Shown piece by piece: positions 35,470 to 61,329 of a stretch of DNA of 64,000 bases; the stretch's first letter is position 1; each line of letters opens with the position of its first letter. This DNA is from Branchiostoma floridae (taxonomy: Eukaryota; Chordata; Leptocardii; Amphioxiformes; Branchiostomatidae): positions 23,704,172 to 23,768,171 of the forward strand of contig NC_049988.1 of the NCBI RefSeq assembly GCF_000003815.2, written 5' to 3'. The notes beneath the pieces were generated by a model that did not search any database, was not told where the DNA came from, and was given only the letters and a program-made list of their open reading frames with translations. Made by a program: the position numbers and the translations under genes.

Positions 35470-38400
35470 TTAGCTGGGCGCGTACATGCGAATTATCGGT
35501 ATTAACTGTCCACAGTGAAGGCACGACTGATATAATTGCCCCGGATGCCCTGCTCCCGCGTTCCACATGTTCAGTGGCCATGGTGTCCCCACATTCCACT
35601 CTGCTGCATTTACTGTGTTCACCGTTGGTACTCTCAAGTAGCCTGGTTGGCCACCTACATCATATGTGAGAGTCCGTGGTGGTCTCCTATTTCGTCTTGG
35701 TCTGTTCTCTTCTACTTCTGCTGGGTCTGGAACATCCTCAGCACCCTGAGACACACAGGGCTGGTCCTCAGACTCAACTTCAACATCAGTTTCTTCATCC
35801 CTTTCACTACCTGTACTTCCTCTCTGGTCTTCTTGTTCAGCTCCAATTTCGACTCTGTTGTCTGCAAGTTCTTCTTCCTCATTATCACTCCTCTTGTCCT
35901 CTCTTTGAGGTGTTTTCTCTTTGCTTCGTTTGTCCACTGGAACCTCTAGAGGCAGTCCGTCACACGGTAGTAGCATATTTCTATGCAACACTCTTGACCT
36001 TCCTTCTCTGCATTCTGGGCGTACCTCATACACTGGAATATCTTTCCCCTTCTGCTTCACAATGATGTGGACTTTGTCCTCCCAGTGGGAACGCAACTTG
36101 CCCGGTCCTCCTCTGTCCGTCATATTTCGAACAAGGACCCGGTCACCACTGGACAGCCTGAGACCGTGCACCTTTCTGTCGTACTGCTTCTTCCCTTTTG
36201 CACCTGTTTTCCTGGCATGCTGACTCGCAATCCTGTAGGCCTCCTGCATGCCACGTTTCCATTTCTTGACATACTCAGGATACGATTGAACCTCATTCTC
36301 CTTGTCTTCAATCCCGAACATAAGGTCCACTGGCAGGCGGGGGTGATGTCCATACAACAGAAAGTGAGGCGAATACCCAGTGCTCTCATGTCGGGTGCAG
36401 TTGTACGCATGAACCACTTTGTTAAGAGACGCCTTCCAATCTGTTTTCTGGGATTCTGGGAGAGCACGTAACATCGCTAGCAAAGTCCGATTAAACCTCT
36501 CCACCTGACCATTCCCCTGGGGGTGATACGGGGTTGTTCTCGAGGGCGACACTCCACTCAGCTGATGTAGGCGTTGAAACAACCTATTTTCAAATTCTGC
36601 TCCCTGGTCATGGTGAATCTTGAGAGGGTACCCAAATCTAGGAATGAAGTCATTAAAGAGCTTCTCTGCCGCTGTTCTCCCTGACTTGTTCCTGGTTGCA
36701 TATGCTTGAGCGAACCGTGTGAAATGGTCCACAACCACCAACATGTACTCGTAGCCACCTTTGCTCCTTTCAAGGTGGACATAGTCAATGGACACCAGTT
36801 GTAGCGGCTCAGTGGTGATGATGTTAGTAAGTGGGGCTTTGTCTGGAATGTTTGGCTTCCGGCGCTTAATGCACTGACACTTGGAGGTACAGTATTCAAC
36901 TATGTCTCTCTGCATCTTTGGCCAGTAGAACCGTTGTCTTGCCAGGCTGACAACCCTGTCTGCTCCCAGATGGCCCATTTTGTCATGTAGTTCTTGGTAC
37001 ACAATGTTTCTATATTCCTTCGGGAGCACTACTTGCAGTACTGGACCAGCTCTCCGGCGGAGAATGCCCTCATCATCGATCTGCAGCTTTTTCCACTCCC
37101 GCATGTATTCTCTTGTACCAATTGAGTTGTCTTGCCTCTCTCGGGTAGTGGGATTCCTCCCCCCTTCTTTCAGCTCTATCACCTTTCTAATGGCCGAGTC
37201 CCGACGTTGCGCTTCACCGATCTCCTTCTTGCTCAATGGTCCTATACTTGCACTCTTGTCTTCAGGTGGTAGACTGTCAATGTTCGTAGTGATAGCACTT
37301 ATCCATGTGGCATCTCCTTGATCCACTGCCTGCATGGCCTGGGTGGTGGCACTCAGTACATCACCACTCACTTCTTCTGTGCAGGTAGCCATAAACTGCT
37401 CAGCATCTCCTGGACTTGGTAATCTTGACAGCACATCTGCATCTGCATTGGCTTTCCCAGGTCGGTACTTGATGCTGAAGTTATAGTCCACCAACTCTGC
37501 CACCCATCGGTGACCTGTCGCATTCAACTTGGCCGTGCTCAGAACGTAGGTGAGTGGATTATTGTCGGTATATACTTCAAAAGATGGGGCGTAGTACAGG
37601 TAGTCTCGGAACTTCTCAGTAATGGACCACTTGAGAGCCAAGAACTCCAACTTCCCCGAGTGCATGTGGTAATTCTTCTCTGCCGGTGACAGTGTCCGTG
37701 AACCATATGCAATCACCCGGAGCTTGCCCTCTTGCTGTTGATATAATACTGCGCCCAAACCATTGGCTGATGCATCTGTGTGCAGGATAAATGGTTTCTC
37801 AAAGTCAGGGTAGGCCATCACAGGTGGGCTGGTCAGCTGTTCTGTCAGTTGATTAAGGATATCTTGGTGTTCCTCAGTCCACTGGACTGGTTGCTTCGCA
37901 GCACTGTCCGACAGCAGGTCGTACAGTGGTTTAGCAATTCTACTGAAGTCCTTGATGTACGTCCTGTAGTACCCGAGGAACCCAAGCACCCGTCGTACAT
38001 CTCCTACAGTAGTGGGCTTCTTGTCTCTGATTGCCTTGACTGCTGCTGTATCTTCTGGATCCATCGTGTACCCATCTGCAGTGACTAGCTTCCCGACATA
38101 CCTCACCTGTCGTCGGAACATCACACATTTCTTTGGCTTCAACTTACAGCCATGTTCCTGGAACCTGCGCAACACTCTCCTGATGCGCTCGACATGTGAC
38201 TCAAAGCCTTCGCTGTAGACCATGGTGTCATCCATATACGGCTCGCATATTTCATGGCTCAAGCCCTCGAGTACTTCTTCCATATGCCGTTGGAATGCTG
38301 GAGGCGCGTTCTTTAATCCCATGGGGACGCGAACCCACTCATAGAGTCCGTATGGCGTTACAAATGCTGTGTATTTCCTACTTTCTTCCTCCATGTACCC

Positions 38401-38955
38401 CTGATGGTACGCCTTTCCTAGATCCAGTACAGAGAACCATGTGTTTCCCTTCAACCTGTTGAGCACATCTTGAATCCTCGGGAGGGGCTGGCGATCTGGC
38501 ACTGTTTTCTCGTTCAGTGCCCGGTAATCAATACATAGTCTCATTCCTCCATCCTTCTTCCGTACGCACACCATTGGTGATGAATATGGTGATTTGGATT
38601 TCGTGATCCATTCTTGGTTAATCAAATCTTCGATATATTCCTTAACCTCCTTGTACAGTGGGGTGGGAATTGACACATAATTCTTCTGAACTGGTTCTTT
38701 ATCAGTCAGGTTGATGTTTAACTTGAGCCCCTCCATGCTGCCAATGTCGGACTCATCTCTGGAGAATGCCCCCGATTCCTCACGAAGCATCTGTCGCACT
38801 ATCTTCCTCTGTTCTTCACTCAGATGAGACAAGTCAACTGGAGGGTCCCACAACTCATCAGGTGCATCCTGCTCTGCCTGGACTGTGTTGACTTGAGCTG
38901 GTTGTTTTGTTTGCTGATGGCTGTCGTTTACTGGTCTCACATCAACTGGAACCAT
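35470..38955 (-). CDS. pol: Ty3/gypsy pol: reverse transcriptase, RNase H, integrase
   Basis: The frame is 1161 codons, open from just after a gap; the true N terminus is probably continuous with protease through the gap. Order: reverse transcriptase with [20 protein letters not shown], the motif A region [10 protein letters not shown] and the catalytic YMDD ([10 protein letters not shown]). Next comes RNase H with [16 protein letters not shown] and [10 protein letters not shown], then integrase with an HHCC zinc site ([11 protein letters not shown] … CTSKCQC). The DDE core reads [17 protein letters not shown] and [12 protein letters not shown]-terminal GPY/F-like part ([14 protein letters not shown]) and an acidic tail follow. 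All catalytic residues I can place are present, so the enzyme part looks intact. Confidence 0.93.
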
Positions 38956-38969
38956 TCAATGGGAACTGC

Positions 38970-39127
38970 NNNNNNNNNNNNNNNNNNNNNNNNNNNNNNN
39001 NNNNNNNNNNNNNNNNNNNNNNNNNNNNNNNNNNNNNNNNNNNNNNNNNNNNNNNNNNNNNNNNNNNNNNNNNNNNNNNNNNNNNNNNNNNNNNNNNNNN
39101 NNNNNNNNNNNNNNNNNNNNNNNNNNN
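38970..39127. other. Assembly gap (158 N) between protease and pol
   Basis: The gap splits the Gag-Pol frame. Frames on the two sides differ as drawn, but the number of N is an estimate, so a real frameshift cannot be claimed. Confidence 0.95.
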
Positions 39128-39753
39128 CTGGTTCGAACAGGACCAGATTGTTTCTCTTCCACTGAACCTGTAGGAATTCTACATCTAACCTGGACAGTGG
39201 CTCCTCGTGATATCTTGATTCTCTTCCGGCCAACCCTTACTCTCACCAAGTTTGTCTTACTAAAATCTTCCATCATGCAGACCAGCGCCTCTGCCTCTCC
39301 AGCTTCTACTGGCACCGCCTGAGACAGCAGAGCAGCTCCGGAGCAGCCGTTCCTGGCACACACACTCTGCATCTCCTCAATCACGTTGTAGCCAATTATT
39401 GGGTGCTCCTGTTTGTCATCTGATGTCACCAAGAATGGCACAGTTAGCTCTGGTGTGTCTTTCTCGCTAACCATTTTAAACTTCACTTCGATCCAGCCAT
39501 CATATGGTATGTTGGTGCCGTTTGCAGCCTGTAAGTTGAAGTCTACTCCTCCCAGTATGTCGATCAATGGCTGAATTTCTGTTTTGGGCAGGTATTTTGT
39601 TCTCCACTTGTTTGTCATGATACTCACTTGGGCTCCCGTGTCCCATAACGCTTGGGTTTGTACGTCCTCTAAGTGACAAGAGACAAGGCACTTGTTTCCA
39701 ACCAGCCTGGTTAACTTTCCTCTTTGTTTGGGTGTTAAGCGTGATGACATCAT
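39128..39753 (-). CDS. Ty3/gypsy aspartic protease
   Basis: The frame contains the active-site motif ALWDTGAQVSIM, preceded by a hydrophobic strand (CLVSCHLEDVQTQ). It is followed by the flap and fold-closing region (NLQAANGTNIPYDGW, HPIIGYNVIEEM), the layout of retropepsins that cut Gag-Pol. It runs into the gap and then into reverse transcriptase. It probably belongs to one Gag-Pol reading unit. Confidence 0.85.
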
Positions 39754-39854
39754 ATTGACATTACCGGTATATTGACTCTGTTCTGTTCTCTTTGGTTCTG
39801 TTCTACTTCTAGTATCTACTGGTGGGTGGTGGGACTGCGTGGTATTCTTCAGGG

Positions 39855-40090
39855 CTACTCCCCGTCCCTTGGGAGGGCCCTGGACTCGTTTCCCCGGGGA
39901 GCAGCCTGACTACGGCATTCCCTGGCTTGGTGGTTGGTTCTTCCACACACGAAGCAGTGGTTGCATCTCTCTGCGCGCGCCTGCCAGCATTGGTCGCACA
40001 GCCTTCTTGATCTTGCTGTCACCACATTGATCCCAGTACGAGTAGTATTTGTATCTGTAGTGTTTACTCTGGCAGCACTTCTCTTCTTTG
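39855..40090 (-). CDS. gag: Gag C-terminal fragment with CCHC nucleocapsid motif
   Basis: The frame encodes KKRSAARVNTTDTNT and then CNHCFVCGRTNHQAREC, a C-X2-C-X4-H-X4-C zinc knuckle that binds the element's RNA. The KKRSAAR start matches the last residues of the + strand gag at 5234, so about 24 nt overlap between the two pieces. Its N-terminal part is cut off by the LTR beginning at 40091. Confidence 0.8.
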
Positions 40091-49429: not shown

Positions 49430-51110
49430 AGGCCACACTGACTTAGTTTTATGGATGGCATCCTCTGGAGACCCCCAAACTAATGTGAGAAGGCTTGTAA
49501 GAAAACAGTCCAACAAAAAATGCTGCTATACCACAGAACTAAACATTCAGTCCATTCTTTCCCGGCCTTGGCTTGTCTTACAAATGTATGTTCACCTCTA
49601 GTAAGACTAAGATACAATAATTGCCATGGCAATAATAATTTTATTGATATTCTATTTTTTTAAGAGGGGAACAAGGGCAATGTGGACCCATGCCATGACC
49701 ATGTGGCAAGCAAATTCTGATTGACCAGGGATGTTATTGTGTCATATGTGGACATAGTTTTATTTTTTAGAACAGACAAAAACTAATGCGCAATTAGATG
49801 TCATCCATAAAATCAAGTCAGTGCGTCAATTGCACATTACCAAGAGGATGTTTCTTGCCTTTTGTTCTGACATTTTGGAAATCTTTGTAACAATCTGACT
49901 GTAATAAGTAACTGTTTAGAACTATTTGTAACTTCTGTGTGACGTTCTAAATATTTTATAAATATAAATAATTATGAAGCTAGATTAATGACACTGAAAA
50001 CGCAAGTTTACTGTCTGGCGGACACACCTCGACTGATTTGGATAATCAGGTGGTACTTTCAGTGACCTTTTGGCGAATATATCCGGGTCATGGTTCGATG
50101 ACCTCCAGCTGTGTTCGAGTCTTTCCAAAACGTTTCCAACTTTCCGGCTCAGATCCTTCGTTTTGCGTAAGTTTCTCAAGGTTCCTTGCGATACACGTGA
50201 GCTCACAGGTAAGGAGAATAGATAAGGAAATTATGGGTAGCGAAGAAAAACATAAGGCCAATTTTAATGCTGTAACTTCTTTGTTGGTCCATTCTTAGCT
50301 CGGCACGGGAGACTATCCGCACNNNNNNNNNNNNNNNNNNNNNNNNNNNNNNNNNNNNNNNNNNNNNNNNNNNNNNNNNNNNNNNNNNNNNNNNNNNNNN
50401 NNNNNNNNNNNNNNNNNNNNNNTAATGACATTTGTCTGAGTATTTTCAATTCCATCAATGGAATTCTTTATTGTTGGCTATATTTCTTTGACCAATGCTT
50501 GATTCTATGACTGTATATCAAAATCTCTCTCATTAAAAATCATTACTTGCCCGGTCGGACAAGTGGGGTAGGAAATGTACTTGCCCAAACAGCATTTTCA
50601 CTTGCCCTGGACAATCGGGCTAGTGGACTTGTCCAACCCTGGCATGGGTGCTGCGATACAGACAGAACAGTCCACCTTTGACTTTGACTATGCTGGCGTG
50701 ATCAACCGTTATTGATCTAATCATGTCCATCCTCGGAATACGTAGTGAAGTGCTACTTTCCTGCCATGGTGATATAAATAAGTTTGTATGGAGAAATGAA
50801 TCAATGCAAACTCCAAAAAAATGTGTATTTGTAAGTATTTTTGTGTCTTCACTGTAGCAAGTACCTCAAACATTTCATTATACTGTGACAATATACACTA
50901 GTTAGTAGGCGGTGCAAGCTGAAGACAGAAGGAAAATATTCTTGGACCAATGGTGTTTTGAGTTCGCGGTGTAGTGACCATGGCAAACACAAAACCACCG
51001 CAAAATGTTTCTGCATTTATAGAATTTACTTACTCGCAAGCACACAGACCAACAAAACTACTTGATATTAAATTGTTTTAATTACTTATATTTACTATGT
51101 GTTGATTTTT
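49430..51110. other. Gene-poor interval before the zinc-finger gene, with a gap
   Basis: It contains a 100-N gap (50323-50422) and, at about 50545-50643, a hAT-like end read on the minus strand (CAGGGTTGGACAAGTCCAC … ACTTGCCC). The stretch 49990-50320 is less AT-rich and could hold a promoter or 5' exon of the zinc-finger gene, but I cannot place a donor. A pyrimidine tract and acceptor TTTTTCTTTCAG end at 51117. Confidence 0.5.
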
Positions 51111-51152
51111 CTTTCAGTTTCTCGGAACTGCTGCATCCGATCAAACTTTACG

Positions 51153-54100
51153 ATGGCAACAAATAGTCCATCAACCATCAACAGCGAAGATCTGAGTCAC
51201 TGTCGAGAAGCTGTTGAGTACTTCAGCCTTCCAGAGCTCAACATGCTGACTAACACTGAGGAGAAACCCTCTATGGAAACTCTCCCTGTGGAGATACCCT
51301 CCATGGAAAATTTCACTGAGGACATACACAACATACAGACTAACGCTGGTGAGAGACCCTCCATGGAAACTCACGCTGTTGAGAGACCCTCCATTGAAAC
51401 TAACATTGATGAAGAACCCTCCATGGAATCTCACGCTGGTGAGAGACCCTTCTTTGAAATTAGCACTGAAGAGAAACCCTTCATGGGAACTCATGCTTGT
51501 GAGAGACCCTCCATGCAAACTCACGCTGGTGAGAGACCCTCCATGCAAACTTACACCAGTGAGAGACCCAACGTGCAAACTCACACCAGTGAGAGACCCA
51601 ATGTGCAAACTCACACTTGTGAGAGACCCTCCATGCAAACTCACGCTGGTGAGAGACCCTCTATGCAAACTGGCACCGGTGAGAGACCCAACGTACAAAC
51701 TTACACCAGTGAGAGACCCAACTTGCAAACCCACACTTGTGAGAGACCCTCCATACAAACTAACACTGGTGAGAGACCCAACCTACAAACACACACCGGT
51801 GTGAAACCCAACATGCAAGCTCACACTGATGAGAGACTCTCCATGGAAGCTCACACTGGTGAGAGACCCTCCATGCAAACTGACACCGGTGAGAGACCCT
51901 CCATACAAACTGACACTGGTGAGAAACCCAATGTACAAACACACACCTGTGAGAAACCCAACGTGCAAGCTCACACTGATGAGAGACCCTCCATGCAAAC
52001 TCACGCTGGTGAGAGACCTTCCGTGCAAACTGACGTCGGTGAGATACCCAACGTACAAACTCACACAAGTGAGAGACCCAACGTACAAACTTGCACCGTT
52101 GAGAGACCCAACGTGCAAATTTGCACTGGTGAGAGACCCTCCATGCAAAATCACTCCGGTGAGAAACCCAACGTACAAACTGGAGCTGGTGAGATGCCCT
52201 CCATGCAAACTCATGCCGGTAAGAGACCCAACATGGAAACTCAAACTGGTGAGAGACCCAACCCAGAAACGCACACAGGTGAGAAACCCAACACGAAAAC
52301 TTGCACAGGTGAGGAACTCTACATGCAGACCATTACATACACATGTGGAAGATGTAAGCAGATCTTTAGTAGCTTGTGTGAGATAACACTCCACATGCAT
52401 GCTCACACCGGTGAGAGACCTTACAGGTGTTACGTGTGTGGAAAGAAGTTCTTTGATGTTACCCACCTACTGGCACACGTGCGGACTCACTCAGGGGAGA
52501 AACCCTACAAATGCGAGGAGTGCGGCAGTCAGTTTAATACCCCAAGTGCTCGTAAAAGACACATGCAGACCCACTCTGGAGAGAAACCGTACAAGTGTGA
52601 GGAGTGCAGCAAGCAGTTTATGTTACCAAGTCTCTTGACGAGCCACATGTTGACTCACACTGGGGAGAGACCCAGACCCTATAGCTGTGACCTGTGCAGC
52701 AAGAAGTTTCAACACAAGGGAGGTCTGAAGACACACTTGCTGATTCACACAGGGGAGAAACCTTACGGCTGTATGGAATGCGGCAAGCAGTTCAGATCAC
52801 AATATAATCTAAAAGCTCACATGCACACTCACACAGGTGAGAAACCCTACCAGTGTGAGGAGTGCAGCAAGCAGTTCAGTACCCTTAGTGATTGCAGAAG
52901 ACATATGAAGACCCACTCCAGAGAAAAGCCGTACAAGTGTGAGAAGTGCAGCAAACAGTTTAAGACATCTGGTTATCTGAAGACACATGCATTGACTGTT
53001 GGACATACTTTGACTCAAATTGGTGGACAAACTTTGAGTCACGCTGATGGACATACTTTGGCTCACACTGATGGACAAACTTTGAATCACAGTGGTGAGA
53101 AACCCTATGCATGTGATGTGTGTGAAAAGAAGTTTCAATATCAGTGTAACTTGACGGAACATATGAGGACTCACACCGGGGAGAAGCCATATAGCTGTGA
53201 AGAGTGCAGCAGGCAGTTTAGTTTCCAATGTAGCCTAAAGAGGCACGTGCGCACTCACACAGGTGAGAAACCTTACAGCTGTGAGGTGTGCGGCAAGCAG
53301 TTTACAGACGCTAGTAGTCGCAATAAGCACATGTGGACCCACTCCCAATCTGGTGAAAAGCCGTACAAGTGCGATGAGTGCAGCAAACACTTTGTTACTC
53401 TGAGTGGATTGAAATCACACACAATGACTCACACAGGGGAAAAGCCCTATAGCTGTGACCTGTGCAACAGGGAGTTTCGACACCGGTATGGTCTCAAAAT
53501 ACACATGCAGACTCACACAGGGGAGAAACCATACGGCTGTAAGGAATGCGGCAAGCAGTTTAGTCAGGCAAGCAACCTAAAGCAACACATGTTTACTCAC
53601 ACCGGGGAAAAACCCTACAAGTGTGACCAGTGCAGTAAGGAGTACAGTGTACTCTCTTGTCTAAATGCACACCTGAAAACTCACAGTGGTGAGAAACCCT
53701 ACATGTGTGAAAAGTGTGGAATGTGTTATAGAACAATGAGTAGACTGAAGGAGCACATGTTGACCCACACAGGTGAGAAACCCCACATGTGTGAAAAATG
53801 CGGCATGCAGTTTAGGACTGTTATTAACCTTAAGGATCACATGCGGACACACACAGGTGAGAAACCGTACAGATGTGAGAAATGCAGCAAGCAGTTCGCT
53901 CGAATGGCTCACCTACGACTACACATGCGGACTCACACCGGCGAGAAACCCTACAGATGTGAAAAGTGTGGCAAACAGTTTAGCGATTCTAGCTCTTGTA
54001 GGAGACACATGCGGACTCACACAGGGGAGAAACCGTACAGCTGTGAAGAGTGCGGCAAACAGTTCATTGAGCTCGGTGGGCTAAGGAGTCACATGAGGAC

Positions 54101-54479
54101 TCACACTGGTGAAAAACCGTACAACTGTAAGGAGTGCAGCAGGCAGTTCAGACAGCCGAGTGCACTGAAGAGTCACATGCTAACTCACACAGGTGACAAA
54201 CCTCACAGCTGCGAGTACTGCAGCAAAACCTTTTGTTTTGCCAGTGAATTAAAAAGACACATGAGGACTCACACTAAAGAAAAGCCCTACAGTTGCAAGG
54301 AGTGCAGCAAAAGCTTTAGTCACACCAATGACCTGAAGAAACACATGTTCACTCACAGTGTTGAGAAGCCTTTCTGTTGTGAGGAATGCAACAAAGGGTT
54401 TTGTTCTGCCAAGGATCTGAGAAGTCACACGCGTACGTTGACTCACACAAGTGAGAAATCCCACAGAGAAGTGCAGTAA
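51153..54479 (+). CDS. C2H2 zinc-finger protein, 24 fingers, with linker-repeat N terminus (1108 aa)
   Basis: I start at ATG 51153 (MATNSPSTIN), 36 bp after a strong acceptor at 51117, so an untranslated 5' exon is likely. Residues ~1-35 are unique. Residues ~36-390 are about 35 copies of a 10-residue unit such as MQTHAGERPS or VQTHTSERPN. From residue 396 (TCGRCKQIF) there are 24 Krüppel-type fingers (C-X2-C-X12-H-X3-5-H) joined by TGEKP linkers, as in YKCEECSKQF and YRCEKCGKQF. Finger 8 carries a 32-residue in-frame insert. Finger 11 has THSQSGEKP and finger 4 TGERPRP linkers. No KRAB, BTB or SCAN domain. The C terminus is cut short by a frameshift in a former 25th finger. It is probably a nuclear DNA-binding protein; target unknown. 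Confidence 0.92.
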   Translation: MATNSPSTINSEDLSHCREAVEYFSLPELNMLTNTEEKPSMETLPVEIPSMENFTEDIHNIQTNAGERPSMETHAVERPSIETNIDEEPSMESHAGERPFFEISTEEKPFMGTHACERPSMQTHAGERPSMQTYTSERPNVQTHTSERPNVQTHTCERPSMQTHAGERPSMQTGTGERPNVQTYTSERPNLQTHTCERPSIQTNTGERPNLQTHTGVKPNMQAHTDERLSMEAHTGERPSMQTDTGERPSIQTDTGEKPNVQTHTCEKPNVQAHTDERPSMQTHAGERPSVQTDVGEIPNVQTHTSERPNVQTCTVERPNVQICTGERPSMQNHSGEKPNVQTGAGEMPSMQTHAGKRPNMETQTGERPNPETHTGEKPNTKTCTGEELYMQTITYTCGRCKQIFSSLCEITLHMHAHTGERPYRCYVCGKKFFDVTHLLAHVRTHSGEKPYKCEECGSQFNTPSARKRHMQTHSGEKPYKCEECSKQFMLPSLLTSHMLTHTGERPRPYSCDLCSKKFQHKGGLKTHLLIHTGEKPYGCMECGKQFRSQYNLKAHMHTHTGEKPYQCEECSKQFSTLSDCRRHMKTHSREKPYKCEKCSKQFKTSGYLKTHALTVGHTLTQIGGQTLSHADGHTLAHTDGQTLNHSGEKPYACDVCEKKFQYQCNLTEHMRTHTGEKPYSCEECSRQFSFQCSLKRHVRTHTGEKPYSCEVCGKQFTDASSRNKHMWTHSQSGEKPYKCDECSKHFVTLSGLKSHTMTHTGEKPYSCDLCNREFRHRYGLKIHMQTHTGEKPYGCKECGKQFSQASNLKQHMFTHTGEKPYKCDQCSKEYSVLSCLNAHLKTHSGEKPYMCEKCGMCYRTMSRLKEHMLTHTGEKPHMCEKCGMQFRTVINLKDHMRTHTGEKPYRCEKCSKQFARMAHLRLHMRTHTGEKPYRCEKCGKQFSDSSSCRRHMRTHTGEKPYSCEECGKQFIELGGLRSHMRTHTGEKPYNCKECSRQFRQPSALKSHMLTHTGDKPHSCEYCSKTFCFASELKRHMRTHTKEKPYSCKECSKSFSHTNDLKKHMFTHSVEKPFCCEECNKGFCSAKDLRSHTRTLTHTSEKSHREVQ
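51240..52330 (+). repeat. 30-bp coding minisatellite in the zinc-finger gene
   Basis: Units of the form GAGAGACCCTCCATGCAAAC TCACGCTGGT are repeated about 36 times in frame with 70-95% similarity. Five more units with the same phase length lie after the stop codon (54552-54701), outside the coding frame. Confidence 0.9.
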
Positions 54480-54701
54480 ATGCTATGCTGACAGCAGTGG
54501 TCTTAGAAAACACTTGAAGAATCATCACAATGAAGAGAAACCCTCCTAAACACTGGTGAGGGACCCTTCATTGGAACTAACACTAGTGAGAGACCCTACA
54601 TGGAAACTCACACTGGCGAGAGACCCTCAATTAAAACTAACACTGGTGAGAGACCCTCCATTGGAACTAACACTGGTGAGAGACCCTCCATTGGAACTAA
54701 C
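54480..54701 (+). pseudogene. Remnant of a 25th finger and linker repeats after the stop
   Basis: After the stop, another frame reads CSKCYADSSGLRKHLKNHHN EEKPS and stops. This is a finger whose first cysteine region (TSEKSHREVQ in the used frame) has lost a few bases. Five 30-bp units (ACTGGTGAGAGACCCTCCAT TGGAACTAAC) follow. Confidence 0.75.
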
Positions 54702-55136
54702 AATATGTGAATGTGAATGAGTACGAAAAGGGGTTTTAAGGAGTTTACTACTGCACTACTGTTTGGCATTTCCATCTTTTGCTCATTTGTGCAAAACTGA
54801 AGCTAAAATGATTATTAGTATCTTTGCGGACTTCCCTCTTCAGGCGTTAGGAAATGTTGAGAATCGCGAATCGGCGACCCCCAAAAGCTGCTAAAAGTCT
54901 TCAACGAAGGATAACTTTGTGCTAGACGCCTACATTAGATCTTGGTTCAAATGCCTCCAGTCATGCTTTCAGCCATGAAAAGTTATTAAATACCAAAGAT
55001 TAACGTTTTGTTCCAGAGTCTTTCTTTGCAGTCGTAACCATCCAAGGCATCTAAGGGGCTTGTATGGAGAGTAGTGCTGCGTGTAATTTGTATTGTAGTC
55101 GTCCGTGTCGCTTAGGTTCTTTTGCGTAGCATAGTG

Positions 55137-55470
55137 TCAATATAGAATACAACACGGTGTATTCTATTTATGTCATACCCACCTGAGAAAACCGCTGTTT
55201 TGATACGAAATGCGCCAGAAGTTGAACAAATTTGTTGCCCTCGAAAAAAAAAAAAAAACGTTGCAACAGTAATGCTCCAACGTCCGAATCAGGAATTCGA
55301 ACTTTCGATGGCGTCGTAATCGGCCCACTCGAAACAGTTCGATTTATTCGAAAATGGAGCCCGTGTGATAACCCCGGGCCGTACGGAAAGTTATCATCCG
55401 GTCCGGAACACCCGTATCGAACGTTTTCGCGTCACAGCTATGACATACTAGTCTGTGTAAACTGACTCAC
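55137..55470 (+). repeat. Dispersed repeat, copy A (palindrome AATACAACACGGTGTATT)
   Basis: It includes TAGAATACAACACGGTGTATTCTA, CCACCTGAGAAAACC, an A-run, TTCGAACTTTCGATGGCG, and CCGTACGGAAAGTTATC. The same order is found inverted at 60413-60890. No protein is encoded; the apparent frames are chance. Confidence 0.7.
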
Positions 55471-57164: not shown

Positions 57165-60100
57165 CTAAGGACCAGGTCTGATCTTCATGACAGAAGACTT
57201 AATGGAGAACCGGTGAGCCGCCCACGGCCACCACTGCATACCATGTGTCTTATTCCCCCCGCCGCCATGCTTGTACGGCTGGTTCAGGTTAACGATGTCA
57301 CAAATTTCATACCACCAACCACCACGACCGCCGTTGCTAGCGACGCAGTCATAGCCCGAAACATCCTGGTCGTGTGTTGAGAATCTGCAACCATCATGAT
57401 AGCTTAACCCTTCCCCACCATCCCCAGCAGTGCCGCTATAGGCACCAACATGCAGACGGTATTTCGCTGCTTCATCCTCGATATAGAAACTATCATATTC
57501 AGCGTATACCGTTTCCGAGGACCAATTCTCGAGATCAATGCGCAGAATGTATGCCCTGAAGCTAGAAACCTGATAGATCTTGTCATTTCCCAGCCAAAAC
57601 TCGCCGACAAGAGCCCCAAACCCAATTTTGTAACTTTTCCAGTCCTTAGCAAAATCTACAGAACCGTCGAAGCGCTTCTGGAGGACAGTCCAGCCGCCGA
57701 CTCCGGCTTCCATCTCACAGAAGACCCGGAACGAGGCACCGGCGGCGTCTGGCTGGATGGTGTAGACACCGCTGGTGGTCTGGCCTGCCTTGTAGACGTC
57801 GTCACAATCTGTAAGTCATTTTGAGTTACATTTTAACTTACATGTATATCAAATAATACATGACAAGAATGAAGTTTATATCAAAATAGCGAACTTGCCA
57901 TCTAAACAATTATTGACGAAAGTAGGTGTTGGCCGAAAACTACATGTTAATTGTAGACTATGAAGATAGTGCCAAATCTAGAATGAAAGGAAAGTCGATT
58001 GAGAATTATATATACCTCTCACTGGCTGCAGGATGACAGCGTTACCGGAACAATTACAGCTTCCTGGAGGTTCAGGGAGTCCGAAAGGGAAATTAGTCAT
58101 TTCAACAAGTGACGTAAAAACACAATTCTGTCTCCCAATAGACTGATAATGCATTAAAGCTACGTCTCCTTTTTTCTGTCAATATGGCTTGAATTTGAGT
58201 GTTGAGATCTTTATTTGTTAATGTCTTCGACACACTGACACACGTACATATGAAACTAACTCACCCCTAGCCGCGAAAGCTACTGGATGTGAAGGGTTCA
58301 GTTTACTTCAGTTTATTTATTTTACCAGGAATACATCTCTGGTCAGCGTAGACCTGTAGATACTACAATGTCTTAGTATGAGACAACCAACAGACAGTTT
58401 ACCACAAAACGGCAGAGTGAGAGTGTTGGCCACTCTCTCCGCCCTGCGGTGGCCGGCGGGATCAGACAGGACGGGCGGCCGGGCCCCGCTCTCCGGCCCG
58501 TCTGCTGCAGGACGGACGGCCGGGCCCCGCTCACCGACCCGTCTGCTGCAGGACGGAGCGTCTCGAGACGGAACATGACGTCTGTCTATGCTCACGATGC
58601 TTCTCAATATAGTATCACAAATAATAGATATTATAATGAAAACCAAACTTACCTGGCGTCTTACTCAGCTCGTCAAGACGCTGCTCCAAGGCGGCGGTTC
58701 GGTTTCGCTCCTTGTCCAGGTCGCGGTGCATGTCGTCTTGGTCGCGCTTCAAGGCGTCAACAGTGTTGGACATGTCGTCTTGGTCGCGATTTAAGTCGTC
58801 AACAGTGGAGGACAGTTGAGATAACCCCTGCAAATGTATAAACGTATGTATACGCACGTCCGTAACCAACCGTAAAGTAAGAAGATGTTCTGGCTCTAAG
58901 AACTCAATAGGCTTGATCAACAAAACGGAATCAGTGGTAGAGAAAATCGGCCTTATGGCACAGGGTTAATTACCTCTTTATTGCTGAACGTCAGACAGGC
59001 GAGTCCTACAGCAACCAGACCAAGCAGGACGACAATGCCGGCGATCATGTAGCTGCGGTGGGAGCGGATGAAGCTGAAAAGAGCACCGTGGCCACTTGCT
59101 TCACCCGAATGCGTGCGGTCTGTTAGAAAAGAAGAGCTTTTTAAACAACGAAGACTCTCTTTTTCATATCGTTCGATTGTAATTTCCAACAAATAGTACT
59201 AACAAAGTTCTTCTGCTGTCTAACTCCAGTCGTAGTCAAGGAACGAAGACGGGAGTTGGACAGTCGTACGTATTGACGTAGTCACATTCGTCATAGTCAG
59301 TATTACGATTTCGATGTCGTACCTTTTTGAGCAAGATAAGGCAGGACAGGTGCAAGACAAAATCCGCAAGATAACAAAGTTTTACCTGCTCTGGAGCCGT
59401 ACAAAGCGTTGGGTATGCTCGCAGCGGCGTCCGCAATGGGCCGCCAATCAGTCGGCGGCTGCTGCACGGGAGCACTTGCGGCGTCTGGAGAAAAATCACC
59501 AAATTAACCGACCACTTACTCCATACTGTAAAAAGTACAAAATCGAGACAAGAACAGTACAACGTAGGCCGCCGTAATTCTACCTTCTATGGAGGCGTAC
59601 GTAGAGTTGGTTTCACTCTCAGCGGAGTCGCCACGTGCCTGGCAATCAGTCTGCGGCTGCTGCACGGGAGCACTTGTGGCATCTGGGGATAGATTACAAA
59701 AAAGTTACACTTCATACAGTAAAAAGAAGAAAATCGAGCGAAGAACAGTACAGTGTAGGCGGGCTTGAGAAAATTCTACCTTCTCCGGAGGCGTACATAG
59801 GGTTGGGAAAACTCTCAGCGGAGTCGCCACGTGCCTTGCAATCAGTCTGCGGCTGCTGCATAGGAGTACTTGTGGTTTCTGGGGATAGATTACAAAAAGT
59901 TACAGTTCATACAGTAAAAAGAGAAAAATCGAGCTAAGATACATCGTACTGGAGAAAATTCTACCTTCTGCGGAGGCGTACATAGGGTTGGGAAAACTCG
60001 CAGTGGCGTCGCCACGTGCCTGCCGATCAGTCTGCTGCTCCTGCATGGGTGTGGTACCTGGAGAAAATCACAAATGATAAACACATACTTCATACAGTAC

Positions 60101-61329
60101 AAGTATAAAAGCAAGACAAGAACAGTACGCCCTCTGTGTACACAGGGTTTGAAGTACGCCATATAAGCTGACTTGACTCCTCAAGGGAAACGCAACAGAG
60201 GCAAGGCTCTAGCGACCTCGAGAAGGACTGTAGAAGGGGGATTAAGACCTAACACGAGATCAGATGGATGATTTAAGATAAGAAGGACTGGAGAAAGTTC
60301 TTGATCGCTTTATTCTCCAACAAAGGGAGCGAAGAGGATTAGGTAGGTAGGATAAGTGAACTTCAGAAATGTTTTACCTTCTGCGGAGGCGTACAAAGTG
60401 TTGTGTCCACGCGCAGCCCGCCGATAAGTCTGAACCAGAAGTCCGTGTATCTCAGACGTATAAACACACTTATGTCATACCTGTGACACGAAAACGTTCG
60501 ATACGGGTATTCCGGACCGGCTGATAACTTTCCGTACGGCCCGGGCTTATCACACGGGCTCCATTCGAATAAATCGAACTGTTTCGAGTGGGCCGAGTAC
60601 GGCGCCATCGAAAGTTCGAATACCTGATTCGGACGTTGGAACATTACTGTTGCAACGCTTTTTTTTCCAGGGCACCAAATTTTTTCAACTTCTGGTGCAT
60701 CAAAACATGGGTTTTCTCAGGTGGGTATGACATGAACAAAATACAACACGGTGTATTCCGCATCACCCTCGGTCTCAGCCCTCCCGCGGGTCGGATCACC
60801 CTCCGGCCGTCGGGCGATCCGACCCGCGGTCGGGCTGATACCTTGGGCGATACTGAATACACCGTGTTGTATTCTATATTGATCACGACTTCTGCTTGTA
60901 GAAAAACGAACAACGCTGCCGCTGATGGAGAAGACTTGCTAGTAAACAGATAAAACCGAAAACGCGCTCTCAGAAATGAAATCTTGGAACAAAAGTAGAG
61001 TTGTTGCTAATTTCATGATAGTGAGAGATGCTACTTGATTCGAGTCCGTTCATTTCCGTTACTTTAAGATTGTCTTAAAGGAAACCAATGTCTTAAAGCC
61101 AGAGTCTTAAAGGAAGCCAGAGTGAATTCGAAGTTAGTTCTGTAACCATACTTTTATTTTATTTTACGGCTTTCCAAAAGCACGCCGTGAGCAGTGATAC
61201 TGGGCTCCAAACTAGTTATGTTTTTATAGATTTTTGACAAACAACCCCCCTTGGCCGCTGGCATGTGTAGAGAGAAGATATCTACGTACCTGTGTCACCA
61301 GTTTGGGACTGCTGTTCCTCTCCCGGCAT
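57165..61329 (-). CDS. Type II membrane receptor with fibrinogen C-terminal domain (480 aa, nine exons)
   Basis: Exons in order: 61329-61290, 60057-59965, 59878-59780, 59682-59584, 59484-59386, 59119-58974, 58827-58653, 58063-58016, 57808-57165; sum 1443 nt, all phases fit. The cytoplasmic tail (MPGEEQQSQTGDTG plus four repeated exons of 31-33 residues) carries PNPMYAS twice, NSTYASIEG and PNALYGS. A membrane span follows at residues ~167-189 (YMIAGIVVLLGLVAVGLACL) with no signal peptide, hence type II. Next is a coiled coil at ~193-250 (DLNRDQDDMSNTVDALKRD), then a short Cys linker (SCNCSGN). The fibrinogen domain is at ~267-480: DCDDVYKAGQTTSGVYTI, VGGWTVLQKR, THDQDVSGYDC (calcium region), GGWWYEICDIVNLN. 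This is the layout of FIBCD1, a chitin/acetyl-group-binding endocytic receptor; ligand here unknown. Confidence 0.9.
58471..58552. repeat. GC-rich 41-bp tandem duplication in the receptor intron
   Basis: Two copies of GGACGG.CGGCCGGGCCCCGCTC followed by CGACCCGTCTGCTGCAG-type sequence. It lies in the intron between the coiled-coil exon and the short Cys exon. Frames across it are not coding. Confidence 0.7.
60378..60430 (-). pseudogene. Broken fifth tail exon of the receptor gene
   Basis: It retains the 3' part of the repeated tail exon (HNTLYASAEG, then donor GAAG/GTAAAAC) but its 5' half and acceptor are replaced by dispersed repeat B. It lies between exon 1 and the first intact tail exon, so the normal transcript probably skips it. 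Confidence 0.65.
60413..60890 (-). repeat. Dispersed repeat, copy B, with nested hairpin
   Basis: Inverted relative of 55137-55470. Where copy A has one AATACAACACGGTGTATT palindrome, copy B has two (60740-60757 and 60855-60874). Between them is a GC-rich hairpin, CAGCCCTCCCGCGGGTCGGA against TCCGACCCGCGGTCGGGCTG. It sits in the first intron of the receptor gene. Confidence 0.7.

Follow-up and report, generated by a model that had tools for sequence, protein, structure and literature searches.

A predicted type II fibrinogen-domain receptor of amphioxus with a tail of serial N-x-x-Y modules encoded by tandemly duplicated exons

Introduction

FIBCD1 is described as a type II endocytic receptor in which an N-terminal cytoplasmic tail is followed by a transmembrane segment, a coiled coil, and a C-terminal fibrinogen domain (PMC9449597, PMC6153955). 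The motif (F/Y)XNPX(Y/F) is recognized by phosphotyrosine-binding (PTB) proteins, and the account that we draw on includes LDLR and LRP1, with two NPXY internalization signals in each, and the engulfment receptor CED-1, whose NPXY is bound by CED-6 (PMC11228867). In integrins, ARH, Numb, and Dab2 can bind at NPxY and kindlins make use of NxxY, these two motifs being the talin and kindlin sites of the beta tails (PMC9234671). The subject here is a minus-strand gene at 61329..57165 of a 64,000-nucleotide stretch of Branchiostoma floridae DNA (contig NC_049988.1, forward-strand positions 23,704,172 to 23,768,171; hereafter the window), which would encode a receptor of the FIBCD1 layout with N-x-x-Y modules repeated in series along its tail.

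The known systems each share a part of this arrangement. LDLR and LRP1 resemble it in their NPXY signals; their ectodomains differ from that of the amphioxus receptor, the CED-1 ectodomain is unrelated to it, and LDLR and LRP1 tails are not known to be built from tandem symmetrical exons. Angiopoietins are secreted, whereas this receptor is predicted to be membrane-anchored in type II orientation, and yet angiopoietin-2 is the best Protein Data Bank (PDB) match to its fibrinogen domain (E = 1.3e-54, among the best 60 of 68 matches). CED-1 resembles it in the tail, pairing FQNPLY with YASL and YADI where the receptor has FxNPxY with YASI; one NPXY is described for CED-1 in that source, whereas the receptor has serial exon copies (PMC11228867). 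FIBCD1 shares the layout, but published accounts give it a short tail carrying three potential phosphorylation sites (PMC9449597, PMC6153955), and the tail here has about 167 residues and four modules. In one open-access library, searches on these combinations of terms found nothing on FIBCD1 and amphioxus cytoplasmic tails, on Branchiostoma fibrinogen domains and NPXY, or on lancelet fibrinogen domain combinations in immunity. A FIBCD1-layout receptor bearing a serial N-x-x-Y tail appears to be new as a combination, its parts being of known kinds.

Four tail exons carrying copies of one tyrosine module

The gene has nine exons, which were rebuilt by splicing at AG/GT borders to give 480 residues. 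The spliced open reading frame (ORF) runs from a start at 61329 to a stop codon at 57165 with no internal stops and with consistent phases throughout, and from N to C terminus it holds the cytoplasmic tail, transmembrane helix, coiled coil, and fibrinogen C domain. The rebuilding confirmed what the initial annotation had proposed for the tail, namely 4 symmetrical phase-1 exons of 93, 99, 99, and 99 nt. All 4 are on the minus strand and bounded by AG/GT: T1 at 60057-59965 (93 nt, phase 1-1, FPNPMY, Y40), T2 at 59878-59780 (99 nt, phase 1-1, FPNPMY, Y73), T3 at 59682-59584 (99 nt, phase 1-1, NSTYASI, Y106), and T4 at 59484-59386 (99 nt, phase 1-1, IPNALYGS, Y139). A single reading frame, the coding one, is open across all of them, and since each exon starts and ends in phase 1, leaving out any one of them would keep the frame. 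The tail has one more tyrosine, Y167, which belongs to none of the modules and lies where the tail meets the membrane.

The motifs had been given as two NPMY, one STYASI, and one ALYGS, and they stand as given, reading FPNPMY, FPNPMY, ETNSTYASI, and IPNALYGS in their fuller form. In the alignment the modules run FPNPMYASA, FPNPMYASG, ETNSTYASI, and IPNALYGSR from T1 to T4. The N at -3 and the Y at 0 are invariant, and belong to the 9 invariant residues among 33 aligned codons (2 of these codons are absent from T1). Where NPxY had been put forward as the uptake motif, that description holds for two complete FxNPxY, at residues 35-40 in T1 and 68-73 in T2, but the common core of all four modules is the looser N-x-x-Y.

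To gauge chance, the 164-residue tail, omitting Y167, was shuffled 100,000 times. At least one NPxY appeared in 0.9% of shuffles, at least two in 0.003%, and at least one FxNPxY in 0.02%, while four N-x-x-Y appeared in none. As all four tyrosines descend by copying from a single one, the shuffle figures, here and below, bear on the ancestral motif and not on four independent events.

The proposal that exon duplication had multiplied the tyrosine module of this fibrinogen-domain receptor is borne out by a tandem repeat family of 127 nt. It has 4 copies spaced 185-198 nt apart, of which the three other than the reference share 71%, 76%, and 89% identity with it; the tail units are tandem duplicates of an exon with flanking intron. 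The sole indel among the tail exons measures 6 nt and keeps the frame; gaps in the aligned introns measure 10, 5, and 7-8 nt.

The count of four copies holds for the modelled exons but overlooked a fifth, decayed copy, here called T0, at 60368..60417 on the minus strand and outside the gene model. A second repeat family, of 50 nt and 5 copies, takes it in. Over those 50 nt T0 is identical to T1 at 39/50 positions, to T4 at 39/50, to T2 at 38, and to T3 at 35, and no site outside 59300-60450 reaches 29/50 identity in this comparison. T0 reads ..HNTLYASAE up to an exon end at 60378, followed by a GTAAAA donor; it thus keeps N-x-x-Y and the GT donor, while its 5' half is unrecognizable. That T0 might be a working fifth exon placed after exon 1 was considered and rejected for want of a usable in-frame acceptor: of 19 AG sites lying 20-450 nt 5' of the donor, 0 give an open, frame-keeping exon into T1. 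Over time, the tail has both gained and lost modules.

Receptor layout and fibrinogen domain

Exon 1 as modelled, at 61290..61329 on the minus strand, holds the ATG and 13 codons plus 1 nt of the N-terminal tail, and ends in phase 1 at the donor GTACGTAG. The modelled start codon is plausible; it is uncertain because the frame is open upstream over the 30 codons examined and because an acceptor-like TACAG lies immediately 5' of the ATG. The transmembrane exon (58974..59119, minus strand) encodes a hydrophobic stretch from residue 168, with the top 19-residue hydropathy of 2.81 at residues 168-186, and the basic FIRSHRSYM flanks it toward the tail, an arrangement typical of type II proteins.

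The stalk exon (58653..58827, minus strand) has heptad-like sequence, and its matches to coiled-coil families all fall under their curated cut-offs, so we speak of a probable coiled coil. Inside this exon, at 58729-58812, is a tandem duplication of 42 nt, 88% identical, amounting to 14 residues or two heptads. The length of the stalk, too, has thus been altered by duplication in frame. A 48-nt linker exon of phase 1-1 (58016..58063, minus strand), which contributes a cysteine, leads to the last exon (57165..57808, minus strand), which has the fibrinogen C domain and the stop codon. The intron that separates the coiled-coil exon from the linker exon contains a GC-rich 41-nt tandem duplication at 58467-58548 that is 93% identical.

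The fibrinogen domain matches PF00147 at 248.4 bits against a curated cut-off of 22, with E = 9.6e-74 over profile positions 3-220 of 221. The initial annotation called this ectodomain FIBCD1-like, and for the layout that is borne out, the type II order of FIBCD1-type receptors being present in full as tail, transmembrane segment, coiled coil (heptad-like, sub-threshold), and fibrinogen domain. The domain itself scores higher elsewhere: among the best 60 of 68 matches to solved chains, angiopoietin-2 is followed by angiopoietin-1, then by FIBCD1 at E = 2.9e-48.

In its S1 acetyl pocket, FIBCD1 is described as holding acetyl groups by the backbone of Cys414 and His415 and the hydroxyl of Tyr431, sometimes with Tyr405 (PMC10825690). 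In our alignment, for which the FIBCD1 letters were checked in PDB ID: 4m7f and the residue numbers counted from Cys414, the receptor keeps the cysteine at Cys414 and has Gly, Asp, and Lys at Tyr405, His415, and Tyr431. Since two of the FIBCD1 contacts are backbone atoms, acetyl binding could survive these changes. Even so, a FIBCD1-like ligand should not be assumed for the receptor, and the lectin role that had been proposed for it is uncertain because these pocket side chains are not conserved. No convincing paralog is present elsewhere in the window, where tblastn matches outside the gene have E of at least 0.34.

Proposed function and alternatives

The reading that we favor, holding it with about as much doubt as belief, is that the gene encodes an endocytic or engulfment receptor with multivalent docking of PTB adaptors, the number of motifs having been raised by exon duplication. 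As a type II receptor, probably oligomeric, it would bind ligand by its fibrinogen C domain and then take the ligand up. The tail, as four copies of one N-x-x-Y docking module, of which T1 and T2 have the strong FxNPxY version, would be bound by PTB-domain clathrin or engulfment adaptors of the ARH/Dab2/Numb/GULP type, and YASI of T3 could give an extra contact with AP-2. In favor of this reading are the complete ORF, the nearly full-length fibrinogen C domain, the basic residues beside the hydrophobic segment, the invariant N and Y that T0 also keeps, the rarity of FxNPxY and of repeated NPxY in the shuffles, the CED-1 parallel, the ARH, Numb, and Dab2 sites of integrin tails, and the endocytic role described for FIBCD1. 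Exon duplication would then mean more docking sites per chain, and with them a higher avidity of the clustered receptor for its adaptors. The gene structure, duplication, motifs, domain, and hydrophobic segment are observed; expression of the receptor, its oligomerization, adaptor binding, and uptake are inferred. If the modules do work, the gene offers a natural series of uptake-motif valency and kind in one receptor, altered by exon copying, in which adaptor avidity and motif drift can be tested within a single gene; it would also place an uptake tail of the LDLR/CED-1 type on a fibrinogen-domain receptor, tying recognition to engulfment.

Several observations weigh against an adaptor-docking uptake tail. 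T3 is without the F and the P of the motif, and T4 has I for F and is without the P. The familiar FxNPxY receptors carry the motif in type I tails, so the type II orientation here would be unusual. On the ligand side, all three of the FIBCD1 acetyl-pocket side chains are absent. The rest concerns divergence. Between T1 and T2, 12 of 93 exon sites are different, as are 11 of 86 sites between introns i1 and i2, so these exons are as diverged as the introns they were compared with. T2 and T3 differ at 14 of 99 exon sites versus 23 of 92 sites in introns i2-i3, and there the exon is lower but not significantly so (p = 0.068); the T3 and T4 exons differ at 23 of 99 sites. With exon and intron divergence equal in one pair and not significantly different in the other, purifying selection on the modules is not established. 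Of the 35 changes counted over two disjoint pairs, 6 are synonymous where 23% are expected (p = 0.55), and neutrality is not rejected. Nor does the constancy of the N and Y codons help, since they have zero synonymous changes and their identity cannot tell selection from recent copying.

These figures suit a history of near-neutral tail growth, in which symmetrical exon copies were tolerated and the added tyrosine motifs came along with little function, except perhaps in one ancestral copy. Such a history also fits the degenerate motifs of T3 and T4 and the decay of T0, and it accommodates a nominal excess of nonsynonymous over synonymous divergence (dN > dS) in all 6 of 6 tail exon pairs, yet with neutrality not rejected. 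Against it, frame, splice borders, and N-x-x-Y are retained in all four modelled copies, a single 6-nt indel separates the tail exons where the introns have out-of-frame gaps, and the T2-T3 exons are less diverged than their introns, at p = 0.068. On balance we regard near-neutral growth as unlikely, though as an account to be taken seriously. A claim of positive selection on the modules was dropped, because the six pairs are not independent and the disjoint pairs, at the p of 0.55 above, are compatible with neutrality; T2-T3 alone gives p = 0.33.

A mixed-signal receptor, with T1 and T2 serving uptake, T3 recruiting SH2 phosphatases by an immunoreceptor tyrosine-based inhibitory motif (ITIM), and splicing setting the balance, would make use of the symmetrical exons, all combinations of which keep the frame. 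The initial annotation had named STYASI as the ITIM, and it does fit the consensus [SIVL]xYxx[ILV], at residues 104-109; two differences from T1 and T2 produce it, P to S at -2 and A or G to I at +3. It is, however, the single match, with no second ITIM found in the tail, and YASI fits the YxxPhi adaptor signal equally well. By chance, an ITIM match occurs in 3.0% of the shuffles and a YxxPhi match in 35%, and on general residue frequencies at least one ITIM match is expected in 24% of cases for four tyrosines. With one match that is not rare for the four module tyrosines, no second ITIM, and YxxPhi fitting too, the ITIM reading of T3 is weak. The T2-T3 differences are concentrated in the motif, with 8 of 27 sites changed there versus 6 of 72 outside it (uncorrected p = 0.019). 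This is no more than a hint that the motif has diversified between these copies: of six pairs it gives the lowest p, the remainder ranging from 0.15 to 1.0, and it would fail correction. We find the mixed-signal receptor improbable. Exon choice to vary signaling is possible as such, because all four tail exons skip in frame, and it can be extended to a combinatorial tail code in which inclusion or skipping would decide how many docking motifs the tail has and of which kinds, and let one recognition domain yield different outputs. The motif kinds would be uptake FxNPxY, YxxPhi or ITIM-like YASI, and bare NxxY. Tandem exon duplication would change the copy number in both directions, as in the decay of T0 and the closeness of T1 and T2, while the flanks diversify around a fixed N-x-x-Y. 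That code, too, we would call a long shot.

Docking of cytoskeletal PTB/FERM proteins of the talin or kindlin type by the N-x-x-Y modules, which would make this a signaling or adhesion receptor, draws on the use of NPxY/NxxY by talin and kindlin in integrin beta tails as described (PMC9234671) and on angiopoietin-2 scoring highest with the fibrinogen domain among the best 60 of 68 matches. FIBCD1, of the same layout, is nevertheless described as endocytic (PMC9449597, PMC6153955), and we think adhesion-type docking very unlikely. That the gene is a pseudogene or unexpressed is more improbable still: the uncertain start exon, the transposon-like repeat in intron 1, and the N runs elsewhere in the window speak for it, but the intact borders of all nine exons, a frame free of stops and shifts, and a nearly full-length domain do not.

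Neighboring sequence

The transposon-like repeat in intron 1 lies at 60471..60758 and comes to within 53 nt of the T0 match. It has an inverted partner copy at about 55145-55447, which is 85-95% complementary over four arm pairs. Also in intron 1, at 60740-60873, are two abutting inverted arms of 67 nt that are 84% complementary.

Elsewhere in the window, two long ORFs at 35470-39909 on the minus strand look by eye like a Gypsy-type retroelement, the second with an N run inside it, and further runs of N occur in the 64 kb. A plus-strand ORF at 51072-54479 encodes a C2H2 zinc-finger protein whose N-terminal third repeats a 30-bp in-frame unit about 36 times (51241-52327). To the eye, the unit resembles the linker between fingers with the fingers themselves missing (..THTGERPSMQ..), and a similar 30-bp unit appears again past the stop of that ORF, in about 5 copies at 54549-54702.

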